From positions 1-53,766 of IMG/VR virus record IMGVR_UViG_3300028025_002785: DNA of 53,766 bases; one strand, 5' to 3'. The translations under genes and the position numbers were made by a program. This document shows positions 5,773-53,531 of the stretch, one piece after another (position 1 is the stretch's first letter; the number at the start of each line of letters is the position of its first letter). The notes below the pieces were generated by a model, which ran no database searches, was not told the DNA's origin, and saw only the letters and a program-made list of their open reading frames with translations. This stretch comes from a virus.

Positions 5773-6398
5773 CAATTTCAGATGACGCCTTTTTATTTGC
5801 AGAAGACAAGGCGCTAAAGTCTCACCTACAGGGAATCTCGGTATCGGATCTAAAGAATCCATCTCGACCTGTAAAGGTTTGGTTTGGATTTCCTGACGTT
5901 GAAATCCGTACACAGGACTACCCATATATGGTTATTGACCTTTACGACATTCAACCAGCAAACGATCGACAGAGTTCTGGCTTTTGGTTGGACAACACCA
6001 ACCGTGGCACACAAGCCCCTAGTAATACTGATGCGTACTCCTACTACGCTCCAACAACTTACGATCTGTTCTATCAAGTAAGTTCTTACGCTCGTCATCC
6101 TCGACATGACCGAAGCATTATGTTTTCAATGTTAAACGAAAAAATACCAGGTAAGTATGGGCACCTTCTCATCCCACAAGACAATGGGGTTGGAACAGTT
6201 GCTCGACATATGTTTCTCGAAGGGTTCGTAAAACGCGACTCCATCGAGGATGGAAGACGTCTCTTCAGAAACGTCTTTAGTATCAGAGTGGTTAGCGAAA
6301 TGACGCCTTATCAGGCAGCACAAGCGACACCTCTTGTGGAAACAGTAAACCTCGAAACAACACCTGCCACCATCCCATCGGGATTCGAATCGGTATAA
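5769..6398 (+). CDS. Putative tail terminator / tail completion protein
   Basis: A 209-residue protein immediately upstream of the sheath gene, the usual place of the protein that caps the tail (T4 gp3/gp15-like). An alpha/beta N-terminal domain with PVKVWFGFPDVEIRTQDYPYMVIDLYDI is typical of tail-completion proteins that handle strain-specific surfaces. It is followed by a polar loop (NDRQSSGFWLDNTNRG) and SYARHPRHDRSIMFSMLNE. It overlaps the preceding gene by 4 nt and has 39 nt before the sheath gene, with a good AAAGGAG ribosome site for the sheath. The role comes from position and general pattern. Confidence 0.45.
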   Translation: MTISDDAFLFAEDKALKSHLQGISVSDLKNPSRPVKVWFGFPDVEIRTQDYPYMVIDLYDIQPANDRQSSGFWLDNTNRGTQAPSNTDAYSYYAPTTYDLFYQVSSYARHPRHDRSIMFSMLNEKIPGKYGHLLIPQDNGVGTVARHMFLEGFVKRDSIEDGRRLFRNVFSIRVVSEMTPYQAAQATPLVETVNLETTPATIPSGFESV

Positions 6399-32986: not shown

Positions 32987-33314
32987 AGGACAAAAGGAGT
33001 CAAGGAAGCATGAGGATAGGCTTGCAAAAGCCATCGATGGTCAGCGCACTGCTGCCAGCGGTGCTTTTTGGAGTCGAAAAGGCGATGTCAGGTCCAAAGA
33101 TTTGCTCGTAGAGCATAAGTGGACTGGCAAAGCATCCGTGACCATCAAGGCTGCGGTTCTAGAAAAGATCGTTACTGAAGCAATTCTTGACGGTCGCATG
33201 CCTGTCCTTGGCTTTCACCTTAATGGTGAAGACTACATAATGCAGTTAGAGGACGACTTTCTAGAGCAGCGCCAGAAACTTCAGGAGTGCTCTTGTTCGA
33301 AGACGAAGGCGTAG
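32973..33314 (+). CDS. PD-(D/E)XK resolvase-like endonuclease
   Basis: A 113-residue protein. The sequence fits the small PD-(D/E)XK nucleases such as the archaeal Holliday junction resolvases: Glu14 in RKHEDRLAKA, then AFWSRKGDVRSKDLLVEHKW with Asp38 and the Glu47-x-Lys49 pair. IKAAVLEKIVTEAILDGRMP is the following helix and VLGFHLNGEDYIM the last strand. Such enzymes cut four-way junctions or nick DNA during recombination and packaging. It overlaps the RecA gene by 14 nt, giving a natural partner. Catalytic residues appear complete. Confidence 0.65.
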   Translation: MTKSKGQKESRKHEDRLAKAIDGQRTAASGAFWSRKGDVRSKDLLVEHKWTGKASVTIKAAVLEKIVTEAILDGRMPVLGFHLNGEDYIMQLEDDFLEQRQKLQECSCSKTKA

Positions 33315-33613
33315 AAAAGTGGCGATATCAGGCTAAGTGCCGTGGTATGTGCGACAGTCCAGAGACCGACGATTGGTTTCCGCCTAGGGACAAAACTAAA
33401 TACAAAACTATTGCCGACCGCGCAAAGTCAGTTTGCTTTGGCAAAGACGGTAAGGCAGAATGTCCCGTGAGGTTAGAGTGTTTGCTCTATGCCGAAGGTA
33501 ACGATGAACAACACGGAATATGGGGTGGCTTATCGCATCGTGAGCGAAACGCTCTGAAGCGCAAAGCTGCTAAACACGGAAAAACATTAGAGGAATGGGT
33601 ACGCAAAAAGTGA
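33293..33613 (+). CDS. WhiB-like transcription regulator, variant Cys spacing
   Basis: A 106-residue protein. TTG at 33293 sits 5 nt after AGGAG and is preferred to the GTG at 33287, which overlaps that site. WhiB features are WRYQAKCRGMC, VCFGKDGKAECPVRLEC, LLYAEGNDEQHGIWGGLS and the basic tail ERNALKRKAAKHGK. The family binds a 4Fe-4S cluster through four Cys, normally with CxxC in the middle, whereas here the middle pair is separated by 8 residues and an additional Cys occurs early. These proteins control sigma-factor activity in actinobacteria. Cluster binding in this variant is uncertain. It overlaps its neighbours. Confidence 0.75.
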   Translation: MFEDEGVEKWRYQAKCRGMCDSPETDDWFPPRDKTKYKTIADRAKSVCFGKDGKAECPVRLECLLYAEGNDEQHGIWGGLSHRERNALKRKAAKHGKTLEEWVRKK

Positions 33614-36327: not shown

Positions 36328-36600
36328 ATGTCTACAGAAGAACAAATCCTGCGTGTAAGCGCTGGCTCAAACCCGCAATCAGTAGCGTCTGCTATTGCCC
36401 ATAGTGTTTATGAAACACGAGGATGCAAGATCAGAGCAGTTGGTGCGGGAGCAGTAAACCAAGCAGTAAAAGCAATCGCTATCGCTAGAGGCTATACAGC
36501 TCCTAGAGGCATTGACTTGGTCTGCGTTCCCGGATTTTCAACTATCGAGAGTCATGATGGTCAGATATCTGCCATCGTATTCGAGGTAAAAACCAGTTAA
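36328..36600 (+). CDS. spoVS: SpoVS-like Alba-superfamily protein
   Basis: A 90-residue protein matching stage V sporulation protein S: ILRVSAGSNPQSVASAIAH, then RAVGAGAVNQAVKAIAIARG and GIDLVCVPGFSTI, ending near SAIVFEVKTS. SpoVS has an Alba-like fold that binds nucleic acid as a dimer. It affects sporulation and cell division in Bacillus and is often carried by phages. The gene stands alone between a promoter and a terminator, so it is probably separately controlled. Its targets here are unknown; it could package or regulate nucleic acid or disturb host division. Confidence 0.85.
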   Translation: MSTEEQILRVSAGSNPQSVASAIAHSVYETRGCKIRAVGAGAVNQAVKAIAIARGYTAPRGIDLVCVPGFSTIESHDGQISAIVFEVKTS

Positions 36601-41884: not shown

Positions 41885-42451
41885 ATGACCACACTCGTAG
41901 CCGTTCAAGGCGATGGTTGGTCCGTGATCGGGTGCGATAGTCGGGCATCGGATGAAGACGGGCGCTTCATGGAACTCGCCACCTCTAAAATTGTTAACAA
42001 CAATGGGGTGTTGATTGCCGTTTCTGGAGCATCACGAGGTGGGAACATCACACAATTTGGTTGGAAACCTCCAAAGCCACGGGCTACAGAGGACCTAGAT
42101 GTGTTCATGACTAAGAAGTTTATTCCGTCAATGCGTAAAGCTTTTATAGAAGCAGGTTACGATGCAAAGGATGATGGAGACGCTGCTTGGCAGGACTCCA
42201 ACCTTTTAGTTTCTATCTGTGGAGTCATTTACCCAATCTTTAATGACTACTCTTGGGACAGAGAAGCCCGTGACATTTACTACGCGGGTAGTGGCGGAGA
42301 TGTAGCGCTAGGCGCTATGGAGGCTTTGGGATACCGAAAGGCTAACTCACCAGAGGCTGTAGAAAAGATGATGCGTAAAGCAATTGAGATTGCATGCAGT
42401 CACGATATCTACTCTGGCGGAAAGATACACACACATATTCAGTACGAATAG
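41885..42451 (+). CDS. Proteasome beta / HslV-like Ntn hydrolase
   Basis: A 188-residue protein. The sequence begins MTTLVAVQGDGWSVIGCDSR, so removal of Met1 would expose Thr2 as the N-terminal nucleophile without any propeptide, as in HslV. Asp18 occupies the Asp17 position and Lys35 (in LATSKIVNN) is close to the Lys33 position of proteasome subunits. The glycine turn LIAVSGASRGG and the later YYAGSGGDVALGAMEALGY are typical of the family. The enzyme is expected to be a peptidase or peptide hydrolase. No HslU-like ATPase or alpha subunit is encoded in the window. Possible roles are prohead maturation, host protein turnover or counter-defence; these are inference. Confidence 0.78.
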   Translation: MTTLVAVQGDGWSVIGCDSRASDEDGRFMELATSKIVNNNGVLIAVSGASRGGNITQFGWKPPKPRATEDLDVFMTKKFIPSMRKAFIEAGYDAKDDGDAAWQDSNLLVSICGVIYPIFNDYSWDREARDIYYAGSGGDVALGAMEALGYRKANSPEAVEKMMRKAIEIACSHDIYSGGKIHTHIQYE

Positions 42452-43422: not shown

Positions 43423-43875
43423 GTGGCAGTTTTGATTTACGTAGAGGGTGTTTTGGCTAGAAAACTTACACCTATCAAAGATGGTCTTGGGCTAGTCCGA
43501 ACCATTCAAGAGAAGCAGGCGATCATTCTGCTATGCGAAAACAAAGCAAAGACTGAGCACTGGCTACGAGAAAACAAATTAGCCCGTATCGACAACATTG
43601 TTGACCACAACATCCCCGCTCCCGGTGATGATGTAGAGCTACGACAGGCTGAGTACTGCCGTTCTTTGGGCCCTATCGACTACGTGATAACCGCCAATAC
43701 TGAGTTAGCCTCAAGACTTCTAGAAAAAGGCTTTCGAGTCCTGCTGTTCTTAGATCCAATTTACTTAGACCACAGATACCGCCCAGATACTATTGATGGG
43801 CGACGTAGTTGGGCTGACATCAAGGCTGAGCTAGATAAGCAAGCTGACATGTACTTGGATGACCCACGCAAATGA
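43423..43875 (+). CDS. HAD-like or kinase-associated protein, possibly degenerate
   Basis: A 150-residue alpha/beta protein starting at GTG 43423 behind ACGGAG. The first strand AVLIYVEGVLARKLTPIKDG lies where HAD phosphatases carry DxDGT, but the catalytic Asp pair is absent (VEG instead). QAIILLCENKAKTEHWLREN and DYVITANTELASRLLEKGFR continue the alternating pattern, and FLDPIYLDHRYRPD follows. It may bind nucleotides without catalysis, or may have another fold. It overlaps the next gene by 4 nt. Function unknown. Confidence 0.45.
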   Translation: MAVLIYVEGVLARKLTPIKDGLGLVRTIQEKQAIILLCENKAKTEHWLRENKLARIDNIVDHNIPAPGDDVELRQAEYCRSLGPIDYVITANTELASRLLEKGFRVLLFLDPIYLDHRYRPDTIDGRRSWADIKAELDKQADMYLDDPRK

Positions 43876-45338
43876 AGATTATTTACCTAGGGGCTGAGGT
43901 CCCAAGTAACCGCCTGCTGTTAGGATCCGCTGGGGCTAGGGCTGTTGGCGTAAGTTACTGGAGACTGATGAAGCGAGGGCTTCCAAAGACCAAGACCTAC
44001 CTTTTAAAGAACTACTTCCCAGAGGACATGGAGATTCTGGTACACCCCGGAATTCCAAAGGCTCAGGACTTAGGCAGAACCGAACTGGAAGAGTTTGCCG
44101 CTGACTACGAAGAGTTCATAATTGACAACTTAGATCGGCTGACATACTTCACTGAGTTAACCCATTTTCAGGTTGGCCCAGACTTCATTCGAGATCAAAG
44201 AGACACCGTTTGGGCAGAGGTACCGCCTGCCAAGTTCTTGCCTGTATGGAGCCCAGAAAGCGGGCATAGAGGGCTTGAGGAGATGGCTGGTAAGTACTTA
44301 GACATTGCCCTTCCCGGTGAGGCTATGGAGGACGCTGTATGGCTTTCTAACATGGCTAGGAAGCTCACAGCCAACGAGGGAACCAGGTTCCATGCTTTGG
44401 GTACAGCGCGACCAGACAACCTGCGTCAGGTGCCTGTGGAGACCGCCTCAACCTTATCGTGGCTATCGCCCATGACTAGGGGAGAAACAATTATTTGGGA
44501 CGGAACCAGATTGGTTCGCTATCCAAAGAGCATGAAAGAGCAGGCTCGTCCACGCCACAAGGCTGTGTACGAAAAGGCAGGTTTGGACTTCGACAAGATT
44601 GTTTCAGACGATGCACAAGAACTTTGCAAATTAGCAGTATGGTCGTTTGACCAATTAGAAACGAGGTTGACTGTGGGTAATGGATCGAACATATACGATA
44701 GTTTCGAGGATCCAGCTGGTGATGATTACGCGGAAACTACCCCTGCAATATCGGATAGGTTGGGGGTTGAGATGCGGAAACTTCAACCTCGAGAATTGAA
44801 CGATATGGGCAATTTACCCGTCTTCGGATTCGATGTTAAGACCGTTGTTGAGAAGGATGAACTAGGCAATGACATCCTCAAAGATGTACCAGTTGTACAG
44901 TCAAGAGACACCAGTTTGCGACAGTGCGATACATGCTTTGTTGCATCAAACTGCCCTGCTTTTAAACCTCAAACTATGTGTGCTTTCAAGCTACCAGTAG
45001 AGGTAAAGACTAAAGATCAACTTAAGAGTTTGATCAACGCAATCATTGAAATGCAGGGTCAAAGAGTCGCTTTTATGCGATTTGCGGAAGAAATGAACGG
45101 CGGATACGCTGACCCGAATGTTAGCCAAGAGATCGATCGGTTGTTTAAATTGATTAAGACAACCAAGGAATTGGACGATTCCAGAGAGTTCATTAGGATG
45201 ACTGTTGAACGCCAAGGATCAGCGGGAGTACTGTCCCAAATCTTCGGCGAGAAGGCTAAAGAACTTAAAGAATTACCTAACGGTGGCATCAGTGAAGATG
45301 ACACAACTAAGATAATTAAGGGTGCAATAGAGGATTAG
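43872..45338 (+). CDS. TGT/DpdA-like barrel protein fused to a Cys-rich helical domain
   Basis: A 488-residue protein. Residues 1-250 resemble tRNA-guanine transglycosylase/DpdA-type barrels: MKIIYLGAEVPSNRLLLGS, TRFHALGTARPDNLRQVP and ETASTLSWLSPMTRG, the last equivalent to the family's DS..SW segment, though the catalytic Asp is not conserved. IWDGTRLVRYPKSMKEQAR is typical of an actinophage group. Residues about 330-370 hold a Cys cluster (QCDTCFVASNCPAFKPQTMC), and the rest is helical (SLINAIIEMQGQRVAFMRFA). DpdA relatives insert 7-deazaguanine in DNA, but no preQ0 pathway gene is seen here, and the missing Asp argues for another role. Moderate to low confidence in the fold. Confidence 0.4.
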   Translation: MKIIYLGAEVPSNRLLLGSAGARAVGVSYWRLMKRGLPKTKTYLLKNYFPEDMEILVHPGIPKAQDLGRTELEEFAADYEEFIIDNLDRLTYFTELTHFQVGPDFIRDQRDTVWAEVPPAKFLPVWSPESGHRGLEEMAGKYLDIALPGEAMEDAVWLSNMARKLTANEGTRFHALGTARPDNLRQVPVETASTLSWLSPMTRGETIIWDGTRLVRYPKSMKEQARPRHKAVYEKAGLDFDKIVSDDAQELCKLAVWSFDQLETRLTVGNGSNIYDSFEDPAGDDYAETTPAISDRLGVEMRKLQPRELNDMGNLPVFGFDVKTVVEKDELGNDILKDVPVVQSRDTSLRQCDTCFVASNCPAFKPQTMCAFKLPVEVKTKDQLKSLINAIIEMQGQRVAFMRFAEEMNGGYADPNVSQEIDRLFKLIKTTKELDDSREFIRMTVERQGSAGVLSQIFGEKAKELKELPNGGISEDDTTKIIKGAIED

Positions 45339-48251: not shown

Positions 48252-48435
48252 GACAATCCTCCGTAAAAAAACATTTCAATGTTCGTGGATCACGTGGCGT
48301 TATCTGATCACAATCAAAGCACATCTCCCACGGTATCAATTTATGATGCTCGTCTAGGTAGCGATCAACTGCTTCGATACCTCCAGCGTTGTGCATCTCA
48401 ATGCACTTATTCTTTAGATCCTCCATCAAGTCCAT
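48244..48435 (-). CDS. Small Cys-containing protein (63 aa)
   Basis: A helical N-terminus (MDLMEDLKNKCIEMHNAGGI) is followed by WEMCFDCDQITPRDPRTLKC and a closing TEDCHE. Four Cys, plus His at 62, could form a zinc site. It overlaps the methyltransferase C-terminal frame by 29 nt and the next gene by 8 nt. Function unknown. Confidence 0.5.
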   Translation of the reverse strand: MDLMEDLKNKCIEMHNAGGIEAVDRYLDEHHKLIPWEMCFDCDQITPRDPRTLKCFFTEDCHE

Positions 48436-49171
48436 TGTTCACCTCCACCAGACGATTGATAATCCATTGAACAACAGGCACAGCAACAGCGTTACCCATT
48501 TGCTTATAGCGTTGAGAGTCAGACTGACTATCAGTCCAGCCATCAGGGAAACCTTGTAAGCGCTCGCACTCTAGTGGAGTCAAGCGACGAACAACTGCTT
48601 CTTCATACGCCATTGTGTCTTTAGCACGCTTAGCGTTAAGGGTTGGTGCTACTTCCTCTTTAGGAAAGTCATAAAGCTCAAAGTTACCAACGTGTGCCAC
48701 ACCGTGACCTCCGACTGTATCTATAGTAAACATAGGGTCATCGGGATTTCCGTAACCTTTACCTTGTGGACCTGCTGTGTCACTACGACCAATAACAGTT
48801 CCTTGAATTGGATACGCAACAGCTTGACCACCAGTCGTATCAACTGTGTAAGCAGGATCTGCTTCAGAACCTAGCCCTAAACCATTCTGTTTCTTTTCCA
48901 TCTCACGACCATCCTGTATTGGATAAGCAAGCATAGGCATGTTGTTACCACCCGTTCCCATACGCGCTTGTAATGTATTTATAACTGGACCTTGAACTCT
49001 TAGATCGTCTACGCGGTTGCCGTAGAAGATAAGAACGGTTGCTCTTGTGTCACCGTTATTCTCAAATGCGTTGAGTGTAGGAGTTACTTCGCCCTCTACC
49101 CATGTCTCGAAATCATCCACGTTCTGCGCTCTCCTACTCTTTATGAACCACAAGGTGACCACTATCCACAT
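48407..49171 (-). pseudogene. C-terminal half of the cytosine-5 DNA methyltransferase (frameshifted part)
   Basis: A 254-residue frame. It begins with a stretch that is not gene-like (MWIVVTLWFI), and from KSRRAQNVDDFETWVEGEV on it reads as the continuation of the upstream Dcm domain. The target-recognition part holds repeated TLQARMGTGGNNMP and TVDTTGGQAVAYPIQ segments. The C-terminal motifs are RRLTPLECERLQGFPDGWT (IX/X region) and RYKQMGNAVAVPVVQWI (motif X). The reading frame differs by one base from that of 49134-49871. If the joint is a true mutation the enzyme is dead. If it is a sequencing error or a translational shift, one complete methyltransferase results. Confidence 0.7.
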
Positions 49172-49871
49172 CTTGGTTGACTACTGTTGCATGGTGATAA
49201 ATCTCTGCTGGTATAGCGTTGGCTACTTCTCGCGCTTCATCCCCTGCTCTAGTGCTGAGTGGAGTAGCGCTGGCAATGACTTTCCTCTTTTTGTTGCTCG
49301 TCTCAAGATGCCCTCGCATGCCTTCGATGAGAGCAAGTACTTCTGAAGATGCTCGCCCTGAGTCTCCAAGACATCCAACAATGAAGACTCTACGCCTTCT
49401 TTGTGGGACTCCGAAGTGCTGAGCGTCAAGAATCCTGTAGCTGACCCCATACCCGCGCTCAACCAACGCCCCGATAACGGTTCCCATGTCTCGTCCTTCG
49501 TTGGAAGACAATAAACCGGGGACGTTTTCGAGGACGAACCACTTCGCTTTGGTTTCGTCGAGGATGCGACAGATTTCCCAGAAGAGTCCAGATCTAGCGC
49601 CAGCGAGTCCTGCCCGCTTTCCTGCGACTGAGAGGTCTTGACACGGGAAGCCTCCAACAATAATTCCGTCACTACCATCGAATCCGAGTTCTCTAAGTTG
49701 ATCACCTGTTACATCCTTTACATCGTTAATTAGTGTTGAGTTTGGAAATTGTTTTGCTAATACTGCTCGTGCGTGCTTATCGATCTCACATGAAGCAACC
49801 ACTGAAACCCCAGCTCGCTCTAGTGCTAGATCAAATCCACCTACACCAGCAAATAGTGATACTGCTTTCAT
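49134..49871 (-). CDS. Cytosine-5 DNA methyltransferase, N-terminal catalytic part
   Basis: A 245-residue frame with the Dcm catalytic core: motif I SLFAGVGGFDLALERAG, motif II EIDKHAR, motif IV VGGFPCQDLSVAGKR (catalytic Cys at about 75), motif VI LENVPGL and motif VIII FGVPQRRRRVFIVG. It should flip out and methylate cytosine at C5 in a defined DNA sequence, protecting phage DNA or copying a host pattern. The frame stops at 49134-49136, and the matching C-terminal half continues one base out of frame. The joint lies at the HLVVHK segment, and reading AAA then skipping one base restores the SRRAQNVDD continuation. It is coupled to the upstream gene by 4 nt. Confidence 0.8.
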   Translation of the reverse strand: MKAVSLFAGVGGFDLALERAGVSVVASCEIDKHARAVLAKQFPNSTLINDVKDVTGDQLRELGFDGSDGIIVGGFPCQDLSVAGKRAGLAGARSGLFWEICRILDETKAKWFVLENVPGLLSSNEGRDMGTVIGALVERGYGVSYRILDAQHFGVPQRRRRVFIVGCLGDSGRASSEVLALIEGMRGHLETSNKKRKVIASATPLSTRAGDEAREVANAIPAEIYHHATVVNQDVDSGHLVVHKE

Positions 49872-50101
49872 TTAAGCCTTCTTTCGATTGTTCTCACAGT
49901 TCTACATGGATACGAAGACCGAATAGAACCGTGGGCTCTCACTTCAGCGCATACTTTGCATAGACCAAACCCACCCGGTGCGTGTAGATCTAACAAGTCT
50001 TTTAACATTTTTAAGTGAGATCTATTAGTAGTTTCCACTTTTGCTATAAGTTCTTGGTGATAAATTCTGGCTTCTGGGCTTTTCATCGCTACTCTTTTCA
50101 T
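49868..50101 (-). CDS. Hypothetical protein before the methyltransferase
   Basis: A 77-residue basic protein with a helical body (SPEARIYHQELIAKVETTNR, HLKMLKDLLDLHAPGGFGLC) and three Cys in GLCKVCAEVRAHG and SYPCRTVRTIERRLK. It could be a small zinc-binding protein. It is coupled upstream to WhiB and downstream to the methyltransferase by 4-nt overlaps. Confidence 0.5.
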   Translation of the reverse strand: MKRVAMKSPEARIYHQELIAKVETTNRSHLKMLKDLLDLHAPGGFGLCKVCAEVRAHGSIRSSYPCRTVRTIERRLK

Positions 50102-50388
50102 GCGTAAGTCTTAATCCTTCCCTTGTAGAATCCTCGCTCATCAGCAGTCATGCCACCCCACACACCATACGTTTCAGGCACAGTTAATGCGTGGTTCAAG
50201 CACTTAGCGATAACTGGGCAACCTTTGCACACAGCTTTTGCTTCTTTTTCTTTCTTACGTTTAGCGGCATCACGCATATTGTGCTCTAAGAAGAACAGTT
50301 CAGGATCTTTGCCCACGCAATTGCCTTGGTGTTGCCACTCCCATGCATCTGCAACGGGGTTTAAGTTTTTATAAGGTAGTACTGTCAT
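50098..50388 (-). CDS. WhiB-like transcription regulator
   Basis: A 96-residue canonical WhiB protein: WQHQGNCVGKDPELFF (first Cys), AVCKGCPVIAKCLNHAL (CxxCx5C) and the turn YGVWGGMTADERGFYKGR (GxWGG). These four Cys bind a 4Fe-4S cluster in actinobacterial and phage WhiB proteins, which bind sigma-A and change promoter choice. The presence of this family is strong evidence for an actinobacterial host. It sits in the early-like minus operon and may control the phage programme or dampen the host WhiB regulon. Confidence 0.88.
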   Translation of the reverse strand: MTVLPYKNLNPVADAWEWQHQGNCVGKDPELFFLEHNMRDAAKRKKEKEAKAVCKGCPVIAKCLNHALTVPETYGVWGGMTADERGFYKGRIKTYA

Positions 50389-51180: not shown

Positions 51181-51392
51181 TAGTACCACCCCTCTTCTAG
51201 TAGAAACGCCCACTCCTTAACGAGCGCCTTTGTAATTTCCGTGACTTCCTCATCCTCATAGGCTCCATAGTCGCTGAGGATATTGACATCGGTTAGGGTT
51301 TCCATCATGCGAGCATTGAGTTCGCCCTGCGAAAATGTGCCCCTTAACAATTGGGCAATCTGAATATCTAAGTTTTCCTTAGTCATAGTCAT
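51180..51392 (-). CDS. Small acidic helical protein
   Basis: A 70-residue acidic protein (TKENLDIQIAQLLRGTFSQG, NARMMETLTDVNILSDYGAY) with DEEVTEITKALVKEWAFLLE near the end. It is coupled by 4 nt to the upstream gene and by one base to the mini zinc ribbon. No family is recognised. Confidence 0.5.
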   Translation of the reverse strand: MTMTKENLDIQIAQLLRGTFSQGELNARMMETLTDVNILSDYGAYEDEEVTEITKALVKEWAFLLEEGWY

Positions 51393-51697
51393 GCTGATAA
51401 CTCCTTCGCAATTGATCTTTTGACCTCATTAATTGCCTTTCGCTCGCATCGGCTGATAACTTGCTCAGCCTCAGCAATGCCGTGGGTGTGCCAACCTTCC
51501 CAATACTTTGCATTGGTAGCCTCAACATAGAGGTGGATGATCTTGGTGCGTTCCTCATCAGTTAAGCAGTTAGGGATTAGATCCATTAGTTCCATGAAGA
51601 TAGGCTCTTCTTTGTTGACGTACTTAGCCTTTTCTGGTTGGTGGTATTCAATAGTCCATTTAGCATCTTGCAGCTGAATTGTTGTTGCGATATCCAT
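51389..51697 (-). CDS. Hypothetical protein, first gene of the minus operon
   Basis: A 102-residue protein. ATG 51697 follows GAAAGGG, while the in-frame ATG at 51769 lies upstream of the promoter and is rejected. The sequence is helical (IATTIQLQDAKWTIEYHQPE, EEPIFMELMDLIPNCLTDEE, RTKIIHLYVEATNAKYWEGW) with HGIAEAEQVISRCERKAINE near the end. It lies behind a CRP/GlxR-type promoter, so it leads a unit of about thirteen coupled genes. Function unknown. Confidence 0.55.
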   Translation of the reverse strand: MDIATTIQLQDAKWTIEYHQPEKAKYVNKEEPIFMELMDLIPNCLTDEERTKIIHLYVEATNAKYWEGWHTHGIAEAEQVISRCERKAINEVKRSIAKELSA

Positions 51698-51735
51698 AGG
51701 TACAGCCCTTTCGGTTAGTTGTTTGATATAGAGAA

Positions 51736-51764
51736 CATTAGGGCTACCGGGCAGGCTCGCCAAT
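51736..51764 (-). promoter_or_regulatory. Promoter of the minus-arm operon
   Basis: On the minus strand TTGGCG (51764-51759), a 17-nt spacer and TAATGT (51741-51736). The CRP-type box at 51775-51790 is exactly 10 nt upstream. The same geometry and much of the same sequence recur at the GP88 promoter. Confidence 0.6.
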
Positions 51765-51774
51765 AACATTTGGT

Positions 51775-51790
51775 GTGACCTGCATCACGT
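51775..51790. promoter_or_regulatory. CRP/GlxR-type box, one mismatch
   Basis: TGTGACCTGCATCACG: TGTGA-N6-TCAC with only the last base deviating from TGTGA-N6-TCACA. Its centre is about 86 bp before ATG 51697 and about 18 bp before the -35 hexamer. Confidence 0.6.
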
Positions 51791-52205
51791 GCGGGAAAGG
51801 GCCCGAAATAGATTTACTTCTCCTTGTTTCTATAGAGAGAGCACATGAGAGAGAGTAATAACGTCTCACGTTACTATCTCGGCTCTATTAGCCGCTACAT
51901 GGCTAGAGATCGCAGATTAGGCACATTCAGGCGAGATATGCGTATATCTCTCTGGGAGAGAGGCTGCAGAGCTGGTGGCACAACTGCTTAGTCTCTTTGT
52001 CGACAATGCAGTAGCCTAAATGTGCAGACAAAGCGATTTGTCGACATTAAATGTCAGCTATATGGCTCTCTCTCTCTTCTCTCTCTCTCTCTCTCTTTTC
52101 AAGCTTTCTCTCTCATTCAAGCAGATTTGATCCAAATGGGCAACTTCTCTCTCTCTCCGAGAGCATGACCGGGCATGAATGAGCAAGACTGGCTATGACT
52201 GGTCA
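51791..52205. other. Non-coding GA/CT-rich segment with inverted repeats (possible origin, packaging site or ncRNA)
   Basis: This gap has no convincing gene on either strand. It holds long CT runs at 52062-52099, further CTCTCT/GAGAGA runs throughout, and two copies of TTTGTCGACA 41 bp apart (51996-52005 and 52037-52046). A spaced inverted pair is GGCACATTCAGGC near 51918-51930 with GCCTAAATGTGC near 52014-52025. Two imperfect palindromes of the type ATGAC-YGG-KCATG lie near 52164-52206. Such repeat-rich, gene-free DNA suggests an origin, packaging signal or structured RNA. A 48-codon plus-strand ORF at 51845-51991 lacks support. Confidence 0.45.
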
Positions 52206-52253
52206 TGTGGCGAATATCACACGTGAGCAATATCACATGTGACCTGGGTCACA
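52206..52253. promoter_or_regulatory. Three head-to-tail CRP/GlxR-type boxes
   Basis: Three contiguous 16-bp boxes: TGTGGCGAATATCACA (52206-52221, one mismatch), CGTGAGCAATATCACA (52222-52237, one mismatch) and TGTGACCTGGGTCACA (52238-52253, perfect). The periodicity is exactly 16 bp with no gap. The two inner copies also form a 16-bp direct repeat beginning AATATCACA. Confidence 0.65.
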
Positions 52254-52255
52254 GG

Positions 52256-52310
52256 CCTCTCTCTATACCCTATCCCGAAGGGATAAGGGGAGGGTGGGTC
52301 AACACAAACA
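52256..52310. repeat. Conserved intergenic element, copy 1
   Basis: Directly after a perfect CRP-type box come a CT run, TATA, CCCGAAGGG, a G-rich stretch (GGGTGGGT) and CAACACAAACA. The same order occurs at 53533-53589. The CCC-GAA-GGG core forms a short hairpin in both copies. The role is unknown; it may be a promoter or insulating part of the regulatory unit. Confidence 0.55.
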
Positions 52311-52340
52311 TTTGGCTTTTGGGAGTAGGCATTTCCCTTT

Positions 52341-52377
52341 AAAAAGAAAGCCCAGCGGGGGCTGATTTCCGCTGAGC
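52341..52377 (-). terminator. Terminator for the 52416-53406 unit
   Basis: On the minus strand GCTCAGCGG and CCGCTGGGC form a 9-bp stem (one G-U pair), followed by TTTCTTTTT. A second hairpin without a T-run lies between it and the gene end. Confidence 0.7.
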
Positions 52378-52384
52378 TTCCTTG

Positions 52385-52410
52385 TTTGCTCAACCCCGGA
52401 GGGGAGCAAA
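52385..52410 (-). other. Hairpin directly after the 52416 gene
   Basis: TTTGCTC and GAGCAAA pair around a C-rich/G-rich interior (CCCC-GGA-GGG), 5 nt after the stop codon. No T-run follows. It may protect the 3' end or assist the downstream terminator. Confidence 0.5.
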
Positions 52411-52415
52411 GCTAT

Positions 52416-52691
52416 CTATTCATCCCATTCATCGTATCGATCGACCCATGCATCTAGGTGATGGGCCTCTACTATAGCTCTCGCCGGTGCCTGATCCTTA
52501 TCTCTCCACTTGACTGGAGAGGGTAGGTCGATCAGACGGTCGAAGTCTTCCTCCCAATAGGCATTAATTGCCGCCTTGCATGCATCGATCATAGACACTG
52601 GCACTGGCGGGTAGTGATTACTAGTTAAGTGAATCGCTAACCCCTGATCGAGGTCCATATTTGCGTACTCTATAGCTTGCGTTGATCCCAT
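52416..52691 (-). CDS. Conserved-looking hypothetical actinophage protein
   Basis: A 91-residue acidic protein: MGSTQAIEYANMDLDQGLAI, then HYPPVPVSMIDACKAAINAY and WEEDFDRLIDLPSPVKWRDK, ending HHLDAWVDRYDEWDE. This type of small acidic protein, with the VPVSMIDACKAAI helix, is familiar from actinophage early regions but has no known role. It follows the GP88 gene by 10 nt with GGAGAC as ribosome site and ends before two hairpins. Confidence 0.55.
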   Translation of the reverse strand: MGSTQAIEYANMDLDQGLAIHLTSNHYPPVPVSMIDACKAAINAYWEEDFDRLIDLPSPVKWRDKDQAPARAIVEAHHLDAWVDRYDEWDE

Positions 52692-52701
52692 GACTGTCTC
52701 C

Positions 52702-53406
52702 TTACTTCTTAGATATCGAGAATGAAATATTACTTTTACCCTTTAAACATATACCGCATGCCACGCACGCACCTTCAAGCTTGATCTGCCCACGCTGTTC
52801 AGGACATACCGCTGTGCGCTCGCCTATTGATAGGAGCATCTCTTTTGCCTGGTCGAATGTCTCGTGTAATCCTGCTAACGGGAGCCCTGCACGCTTGACA
52901 CGTGCCGCGGCTTCGAAGTTATCAGTATCAGTGGAGAAGTAGATCGAGAGATTCTCTAGACCCATAAGGCTATAGATAGCAGACTCTACACGTGTATACG
53001 CCCAAAACCTAACGTTAGGGTGCATCTGCACTACCTTTTGCCATGCATAGGTATACGTACCGTTGAAGAAGTCCCCGTCCCAATGAATGCGGAAGTCCTT
53101 AGGCGCATCCCACTTTTCACACTCAGCTTCAAATTCGATGATCATGTCATCCAATAGGGTAACCATAGTGTCGATATCTGCATCTCTCACTAAGTCCCAA
53201 TTGTGAATTAGGCTAGCCTTTACGTTAGGGTAGATCTTCTCTAGTTTTCCTGCGTAGCATATTTTGCTGCACACTGAAGTAGCCGACGGGCAAGAGTAGT
53301 CTCTCCCGGCGGGTAAACCAAACGAATTTGCAATGCGTGCTGTTTTGCCGTTAGGCGTTAAACTATTTGATACCTTGCGATCTTTCGACCGCTTCAATTT
53401 CTCCAT
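52702..53406 (-). CDS. GP88-family protein with Cys clusters
   Basis: A 234-residue protein of the GP88 family seen in mycobacteriophages and other actinophages. Characteristic parts are KTARIANSFGLPAGRDYSCP, SATSVCSKICYAGKLE (three Cys), FRIHWDGDFFNGTYTYAW, VRFWAYTRVESAIYSL and a C-terminal Cys set in TAVCPEQRGQIKLEGACVAC with GICLKG following. The two clusters may bind iron-sulfur or zinc, and the core looks like a barrel with radical-SAM-like spacing, but no CxxxCxxC motif is present. Its function is unknown. It is preceded by a promoter with two CRP-type boxes. Confidence 0.75.
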   Translation of the reverse strand: MEKLKRSKDRKVSNSLTPNGKTARIANSFGLPAGRDYSCPSATSVCSKICYAGKLEKIYPNVKASLIHNWDLVRDADIDTMVTLLDDMIIEFEAECEKWDAPKDFRIHWDGDFFNGTYTYAWQKVVQMHPNVRFWAYTRVESAIYSLMGLENLSIYFSTDTDNFEAAARVKRAGLPLAGLHETFDQAKEMLLSIGERTAVCPEQRGQIKLEGACVACGICLKGKSNISFSISKK

Positions 53407-53433
53407 AATCAGCCCTTCTAGTAGTTAATGCAT

Positions 53434-53462
53434 AGTTAACTCTCTCTAACCGCGCTCGCCAA
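53434..53462 (-). promoter_or_regulatory. GP88 promoter
   Basis: On the minus strand TTGGCG (53462-53457), a 17-nt spacer and TTAACT (53439-53434). The CRP-type box lies exactly 10 nt upstream, as at 51736-51764. The intervening sequence between box and -35 is also similar (CAAA....TA). Confidence 0.6.
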
Positions 53463-53472
53463 TACCTTTTGC

Positions 53473-53488
53473 TGTGATCTACATCACA
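53473..53488. promoter_or_regulatory. CRP/GlxR-type box, perfect match
   Basis: TGTGATCTACATCACA is a perfect TGTGA-N6-TCACA palindrome, 10 nt upstream of the GP88 -35 hexamer. Confidence 0.7.
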
Positions 53489-53515
53489 CCTGGAGCAGCT
53501 GACAGCAGCTGGCTG

Positions 53516-53531
53516 TGTGACCTACATCACA
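53516..53531. promoter_or_regulatory. CRP/GlxR-type box, perfect match
   Basis: TGTGACCTACATCACA, a second perfect box with its centre 43 bp from the first, about four helical turns, so two dimers would lie on the same face. The conserved element copy 2 begins 2 nt after it. Confidence 0.7.

Follow-up and report, generated by a model that had tools for sequence, protein, structure and literature searches.

Cluster A (L5-type) mycobacteriophages carry stoperators, 13-bp asymmetric repressor sites. The boxes described here are likewise short, repeated, and located in a right arm with gp88 among its leftward genes, but they are 16-bp palindromes, and no TGTGA-N6-TCACA boxes were found near gp88 of the cluster A phage JoshKayV. 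That host CRP can act on phage promoters is known from Escherichia coli phage T1, where it does so as a repressor (PMC6737242). The promoters of T1 pir, dam and recE thus share with those considered here a host CRP as controller, known for T1 and proposed here; however, they are repressed and tuned by glucose and cAMP, whereas the upstream, helically phased boxes in the present phages point to activation. Also unlike T1, the sites here form arrays, belong to actinophages, and have a likely host in which no class III cyclase was found. A second point of comparison is provided by the actinobacterial regulons of GlxR and Mycobacterium tuberculosis CRP, which involve the same palindrome and the same recognition helix, and in which upstream sites such as -62.5 and -69.5 occur for the M. 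tuberculosis protein (PMC4117774, PMC4005916). Here, by contrast, the sites lie in phage genomes at a far higher density than in hosts, and a host regulon is not visible. Searches of the open literature turned up no account of such boxes in phages of actinobacteria.

The window, meaning the whole 53,766-nt stretch that was analyzed, is an entire IMG/VR virus record (IMGVR_UViG_3300028025_002785) from a contractile-tailed phage with a tail sheath, and its baseplate J protein is nearest to those of Streptomyces phages (36%). Among the genes of the phage are those for two WhiB proteins, a DNA polymerase, a ribonucleotide reductase and a gp88-family protein, and from about 47.5 kb onward gene direction is leftward. 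Elsewhere in the record we noted the second WhiB (33287-33613), a SpoVS protein (36328-36600), a weak match to a proteasome subunit (41885-42451), and a queuine tRNA-ribosyltransferase-like protein (43872-45338) that we take to be of the phage DNA-modification type.

Scanning the record for TGTGA-N6-TCACA with at most one mismatch returned six sites in all, starting at 51774, 52206 and 52222 (one mismatch each) and at 52238, 53473 and 53516 (perfect). The initial annotation had listed six such sites, three of them perfect and all intergenic, and this description is borne out in every respect except the start of the first, which lies one base before the 51775 given; the other five starts were correct. 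All six fall within 1.76 kb, so the even density along the genome that the annotation had named as grounds for abandoning its proposal is not seen, and the enrichment confined to the right arm, which it had named beside binding as support, is present. Matches with two mismatches, 13 in number, are scattered over the record; with these included the total comes to 19, lower than the shuffle mean of 28. Second-order Markov simulations of the record (n = 200) gave means of 0.04 perfect and 1.35 near-perfect sites per record, maxima of 1 and 5, respectively, and never more than two sites within any 1758 bp. The six sites combine the palindrome and the intergenic position of CRP/GlxR sites, and their inner bases fit the CRP consensus; across 89 distinct boxes, position 6 is nearly devoid of A and the center prefers TA. 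That such sites are a chance or compositional artifact of palindromic intergenic DNA has practically no probability in our estimate: nothing was found in its support, and it is ruled out by the simulations, by reversed-pattern controls, and by the conservation of the boxes in dozens of relatives. The features of the region are as follows, with promoter elements and the terminator predicted from the sequence.

53516-53531, minus strand: TGTGATGTAGGTCACA, a CRP-type box without mismatch, the farther upstream of the two at the gp88 promoter
53473-53488, minus strand: TGTGATGTAGATCACA, a CRP-type box without mismatch, the nearer of the two to the gp88 promoter, center about -53.5 from the predicted start
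53457-53462, minus strand: predicted -35 element of gp88, TTGGCG, whose offset of +11 to +16 past the box is kept in L004-L006
53434-53439, minus strand: predicted -10 element of gp88, TTAACT, after a 17-nt spacer
52702-53406, minus strand: gp88-family gene, 234 aa (Pfam PF17338, E = 1e-44), first gene of a leftward unit
52416-52691, minus strand: gene for a 91-aa protein with no assigned function, beside gp88 in box-bearing relatives
52345-52380, minus strand: predicted intrinsic terminator, a stem followed by TTTCTTTTT, end of the gp88 unit
52238-52253, minus strand: perfect box TGTGACCCAGGTCACA, opening a tandem array
52222-52237, minus strand: one-mismatch box TGTGATATTGCTCACG, abutting the 52238 box
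52206-52221, minus strand: one-mismatch box TGTGATATTCGCCACA, abutting the 52222 box
51774-51789, minus strand: one-mismatch box CGTGATGCAGGTCACA, at the promoter of the WhiB/methyltransferase operon
51758-51763, minus strand: predicted -35 element of the WhiB/methyltransferase operon, TTGGCG
51735-51740, minus strand: predicted -10 element of the WhiB/methyltransferase operon, TAATGT
51389-51697, minus strand: gene that opens the leftward operon, its start moved from 51769 to 51697
50098-50388, minus strand: WhiB-like regulator (PF02467, E = 1.4e-24) within the downstream operon

The gp88-family protein is 50-51% to those of cluster A mycobacteriophages. Its two boxes lie 43 bp apart from center to center, or about four helical turns. 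The 51774 box has an identical copy in the same place in L004-L006, and the gene beside it is likely to begin at 51697 and not at 51769; we prefer the later start because the predicted -10 element would otherwise fall inside the gene, and the later start is preceded by a Shine-Dalgarno-like AAAGGG. Between the gp88 unit and the WhiB/methyltransferase operon sits the triple array (52206-52253), whose order of boxes is conserved in L004-L006. No promoter was found at the right distance from the array, and as a guess it might serve in looping or in CRP recruitment.

Several other observations were made in this part of the genome. About 400 nt of non-coding DNA (51800-52200) carry TGTCGACAAA repeats that are partly kept in L004-L006 and L266; this DNA could contain a small RNA or an origin, and comparison of the right arm with known RNA families gave only sub-threshold matches. 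At the position of one CRP-type box of L004 the window carries TTGTCGACAAAG. The C5-cytosine methyltransferase is split between overlapping frames on the minus strand (48407-49171 and 49134-49871, a 38-nt overlap), and a similar overlap in L270, L271 and L274 suggests a conserved split gene or a programmed frameshift.

The boxes recur in related phages. Relatives have about 10-19 boxes, nearly all of them in the same right arm. In each of the records G001-G006, which were found through gp88, 11-19 boxes have no more than one mismatch, compared with 0-3 matches to the reversed pattern, and 13 of the 15 boxes of G002 (a 71-kb record) lie inside 7.2 kb. A GC-richer relative (G007/L011) has a single box, and no perfect box occurs in 935 kb of sequence surrounding the DNA polymerases of 80 relatives. 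Through the neighboring 91-aa gene we collected 42 further loci, more than half of them with boxes. These are mainly from a clade with 37-40% GC (clade IV), in which each locus has 3-6 perfect boxes apart from one short locus with a single box; the others have one or none. Searching IMG/VR by pattern alone, for two perfect boxes close together, yielded at least 111 new loci; over their 1.0 Mb there are 440 perfect boxes, and one-mismatch boxes outnumber control sites by 611 to 30. About 30 among the at least 111 new loci listed encode gp88 or the 91-aa protein, and the matches listed also include other, unrelated phages. A scan of IMG/VR with the pattern TGTGATGYAGRTCACA was dropped because chance matches were mixed into the matches listed. 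Some loci (L392, L397, L401, L421, L422, L429 and L011) keep the 91-aa gene or gp88 and have no box or only one. In the right arm of L007, a canonical parS-like site (TGTTTCACGTGAAACA, about 6313-6328) adjoins a CRP-type box.

The surroundings of the boxes have a regular anatomy. In the window and L004-L006 (clade I), a -35 element (TTGGCG or TTAGCG) occupies +11 to +16 past the box and, across a spacer of 17 nt, a -10 element (TTAACT, TAATGT or TTAAAT) occupies +34 to +39; with the start placed 7 nt past the -10 element, as predicted from sequence, the box center lies at about -53.5. Clade II (L009, L010) has a different block, GGGTGGCAGGTT, with the -10 element one base further and the box at -54.5, and both G011 and the clade with 37-40% GC have still other blocks beside the box. 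The box is thus constant across clades while the adjacent promoter block varies by clade, a pattern that would make a conserved host protein likelier as its partner than a fast-evolving phage protein.

For a test of helical phasing we used the 37-40% GC clade, in which the core promoter reads TGTCRG-10 nt-TATAAT (342 promoters from 86 loci), grouping promoters by downstream protein into 50 families and comparing the modal distances of the box centers. These distances are periodic at 10 to 10.5 bp, about 10.25 (R = 0.46, p about 2e-5), as are the 118 family-distance pairs, which are not fully independent of one another (R = 0.39, p about 2e-8). Peaks lie near 54.5, 63.5-64.5, 74.5 and 84.5 bp, and inside single families the spacing shifts by whole turns, for example 54.5/63.5/74.5. 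The distances in clades I and II (-53.5 and -54.5) share this phase. Box-to-core distances differing by whole turns, which mark a class-I-like arrangement, are therefore found across the 50 families, the exception being about one fifth of the family-distance pairs, at 69.5-71.5, that are half a turn out of phase. Phasing of this kind suggests an activator that touches RNA polymerase from one face of the DNA.

In L388-L428 we also observed repeated promoters in which TGTCRG precedes a TATAAT-like -10 element by 16 nt (292 of 316), many of them without a CRP box. We rejected TGTCRG as a -35 element since this offset is too short for a 17-nt spacer, and consider it a candidate site for a phage regulator. 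The idea that boxes compensate for a weak -35 element was likewise rejected, the boxed promoters of clade IV having a better -35 than the box-free TGTCRG promoters; the lone contrary case, gp88 of L011 with TTGACA and no box, is anecdotal.

Which protein might read the boxes? A search for CRP-type cyclic nucleotide-binding proteins (PF00027) in the window and 11 relatives, some of them fragments, was negative, and on this basis we rejected a phage-encoded CRP. By tetranucleotide profile the window is closest to low-GC Nanopelagicales (r = 0.56-0.61, with relatives reaching 0.72), and its correlation with other actinobacterial genomes is mostly below 0.35, so that by composition the Nanopelagicales are the likely host order. 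We reached named genomes of this order through the AcI-852 probe sequence (PMC3699509). Six of eight encode one CRP, beside nth, and the two without it are small assemblies of 0.6-0.9 Mb. This protein aligns over its full length with M. tuberculosis CRP (E = 2e-79) and has an identical recognition helix, GASRETVNKALADFA, and by sequence it is the orthologue of GlxR and M. tuberculosis CRP. With no CRP in the phage and a matching one in the likely host, host CRP is the best candidate for the binding protein.

The genomes of the likely host order fit this candidate less well. Across 61 Nanopelagicales genomes there is no excess of the motif (1042 near-perfect versus 1048 control sites); three host genomes have no perfect box; LanE-43 has no perfect site, and all 19 of its one-mismatch sites are in predicted coding DNA; and no box was seen upstream of the host crp gene. 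The annotated CRP/GlxR recognition is supported by the motif and by the host helix but is not reflected in host-genome sites. Either the host is wrong, or its CRP sites are few or degenerate, or the boxes serve another protein, and our confidence in host CRP is lowered accordingly. The missing excess would be expected if a phage protein other than a CRP, such as an uncharacterized right-arm protein or a WhiB partner, bound the boxes and their likeness to CRP sites were convergent. Use of the phage's own protein had been the alternative offered at the outset; the PF00027 search of the window and 11 relatives, some of them fragments, found nothing for its CRP-family form, and we judge the remaining form unlikely. 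Box-bearing relatives do have uncharacterized proteins in common, for example the one encoded at 52416-52691, but that 91-aa gene, or gp88 in the case of L011, is also found in relatives without boxes; among the right-arm proteins scanned, WhiB is the only one besides the methyltransferase halves to match a DNA-binding family; and the inner bases of the boxes match the CRP consensus and the box stays constant while neighboring elements diverge. The box-free relatives that keep gp88 or the 91-aa gene (L011, L392) count against host CRP as well.

Alternatively, the true host may be an unsampled actinobacterium with cAMP and a normal CRP regulon that the phage joins. This possibility agrees with host CRP as the binder and conflicts with a cAMP-free reading. 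Many other Actinomycetota have perfect boxes above control (at least one in 169 of 296 genomes, for example 17 versus 1), and no sampled host fits clade IV well, but for the window and its near relatives the best correlation is that with low-GC members of the Nanopelagicales, and we are inclined to doubt that the host lies elsewhere.

It had also been proposed that the phage reads host cAMP or energy status through these sites. We found no support for this. No class III adenylate cyclase (PF00211) was detected in eight host genomes, two of them partial, with Corynebacterium glutamicum as a positive control, so for this class the host cyclase expected under cAMP-dependent catabolite control is not seen. 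The host CRP retains E..TS..R..TN, the cAMP-site motif found in M. tuberculosis CRP, a protein with an E. coli-like consensus whose DNA binding does not need cAMP and becomes only about 2-fold stronger with it (PMC4005916). Taken with the lack of a host site excess, these points leave cAMP sensing unsupported, and our analysis suggests that the phages probably use host CRP without sensing cAMP. They bear as well on whether host CRP might repress or time phage genes, tying infection or dormancy to cAMP or nutrients. T1 offers the precedent, since its pir promoter is a direct target of repression by cAMP-CRP and its dam and recE are repressed too (PMC6737242), and in the window there could be room for several dimers on the 53473/53516 pair and on the triple array. 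Nevertheless, we consider repression improbable given that the box centers lie upstream of the core promoters and in phase with them instead of covering them, that the host genomes searched have no class III cyclase, and that CRP of the M. tuberculosis type is nearly independent of cAMP (PMC4005916).

We therefore return to host CRP as an activator. Direct observation extends to the sites, their clustering, their conservation across phages and fixed phase, the lack of a phage CRP, and a CRP in the likely host order; from these we infer the host assignment, binding, the sign (activation) and a large degree of cAMP independence, and we think it reasonably probable that the boxes are sites at which host CRP serves as a class-I-like activator of right-arm genes. 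In such a mechanism, host CRP would sit some 54 bp upstream of the start, and in relatives at about 64, 74 or 84 bp as well; from there, on one side of the DNA, it would touch the host's RNA polymerase and raise transcription of gp88 and the WhiB/methyltransferase operon. A more far-reaching proposal, to which we give a rather low probability, starts from abundant freshwater actinobacteria whose CRP has no visible regulon with this motif and no class III cyclase found to signal to it, and from phages that carry dense, phased CRP promoters: the phages would in effect have taken over host CRP as an activator that works without cAMP and mainly on their own genes.

Freshwater actinobacteria rank with the commonest bacteria of lakes, and transcription start in their phages is little understood. 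Family-wide promoters of the CRP type would explain how the right arm is switched on in phages without a CRP of their own, and promoter positions would become predictable in many uncultured phages. They also raise the question of why a CRP whose DNA-binding and cAMP-site residues are conserved persists in hosts whose genomes show neither sites for it nor a class III cyclase.
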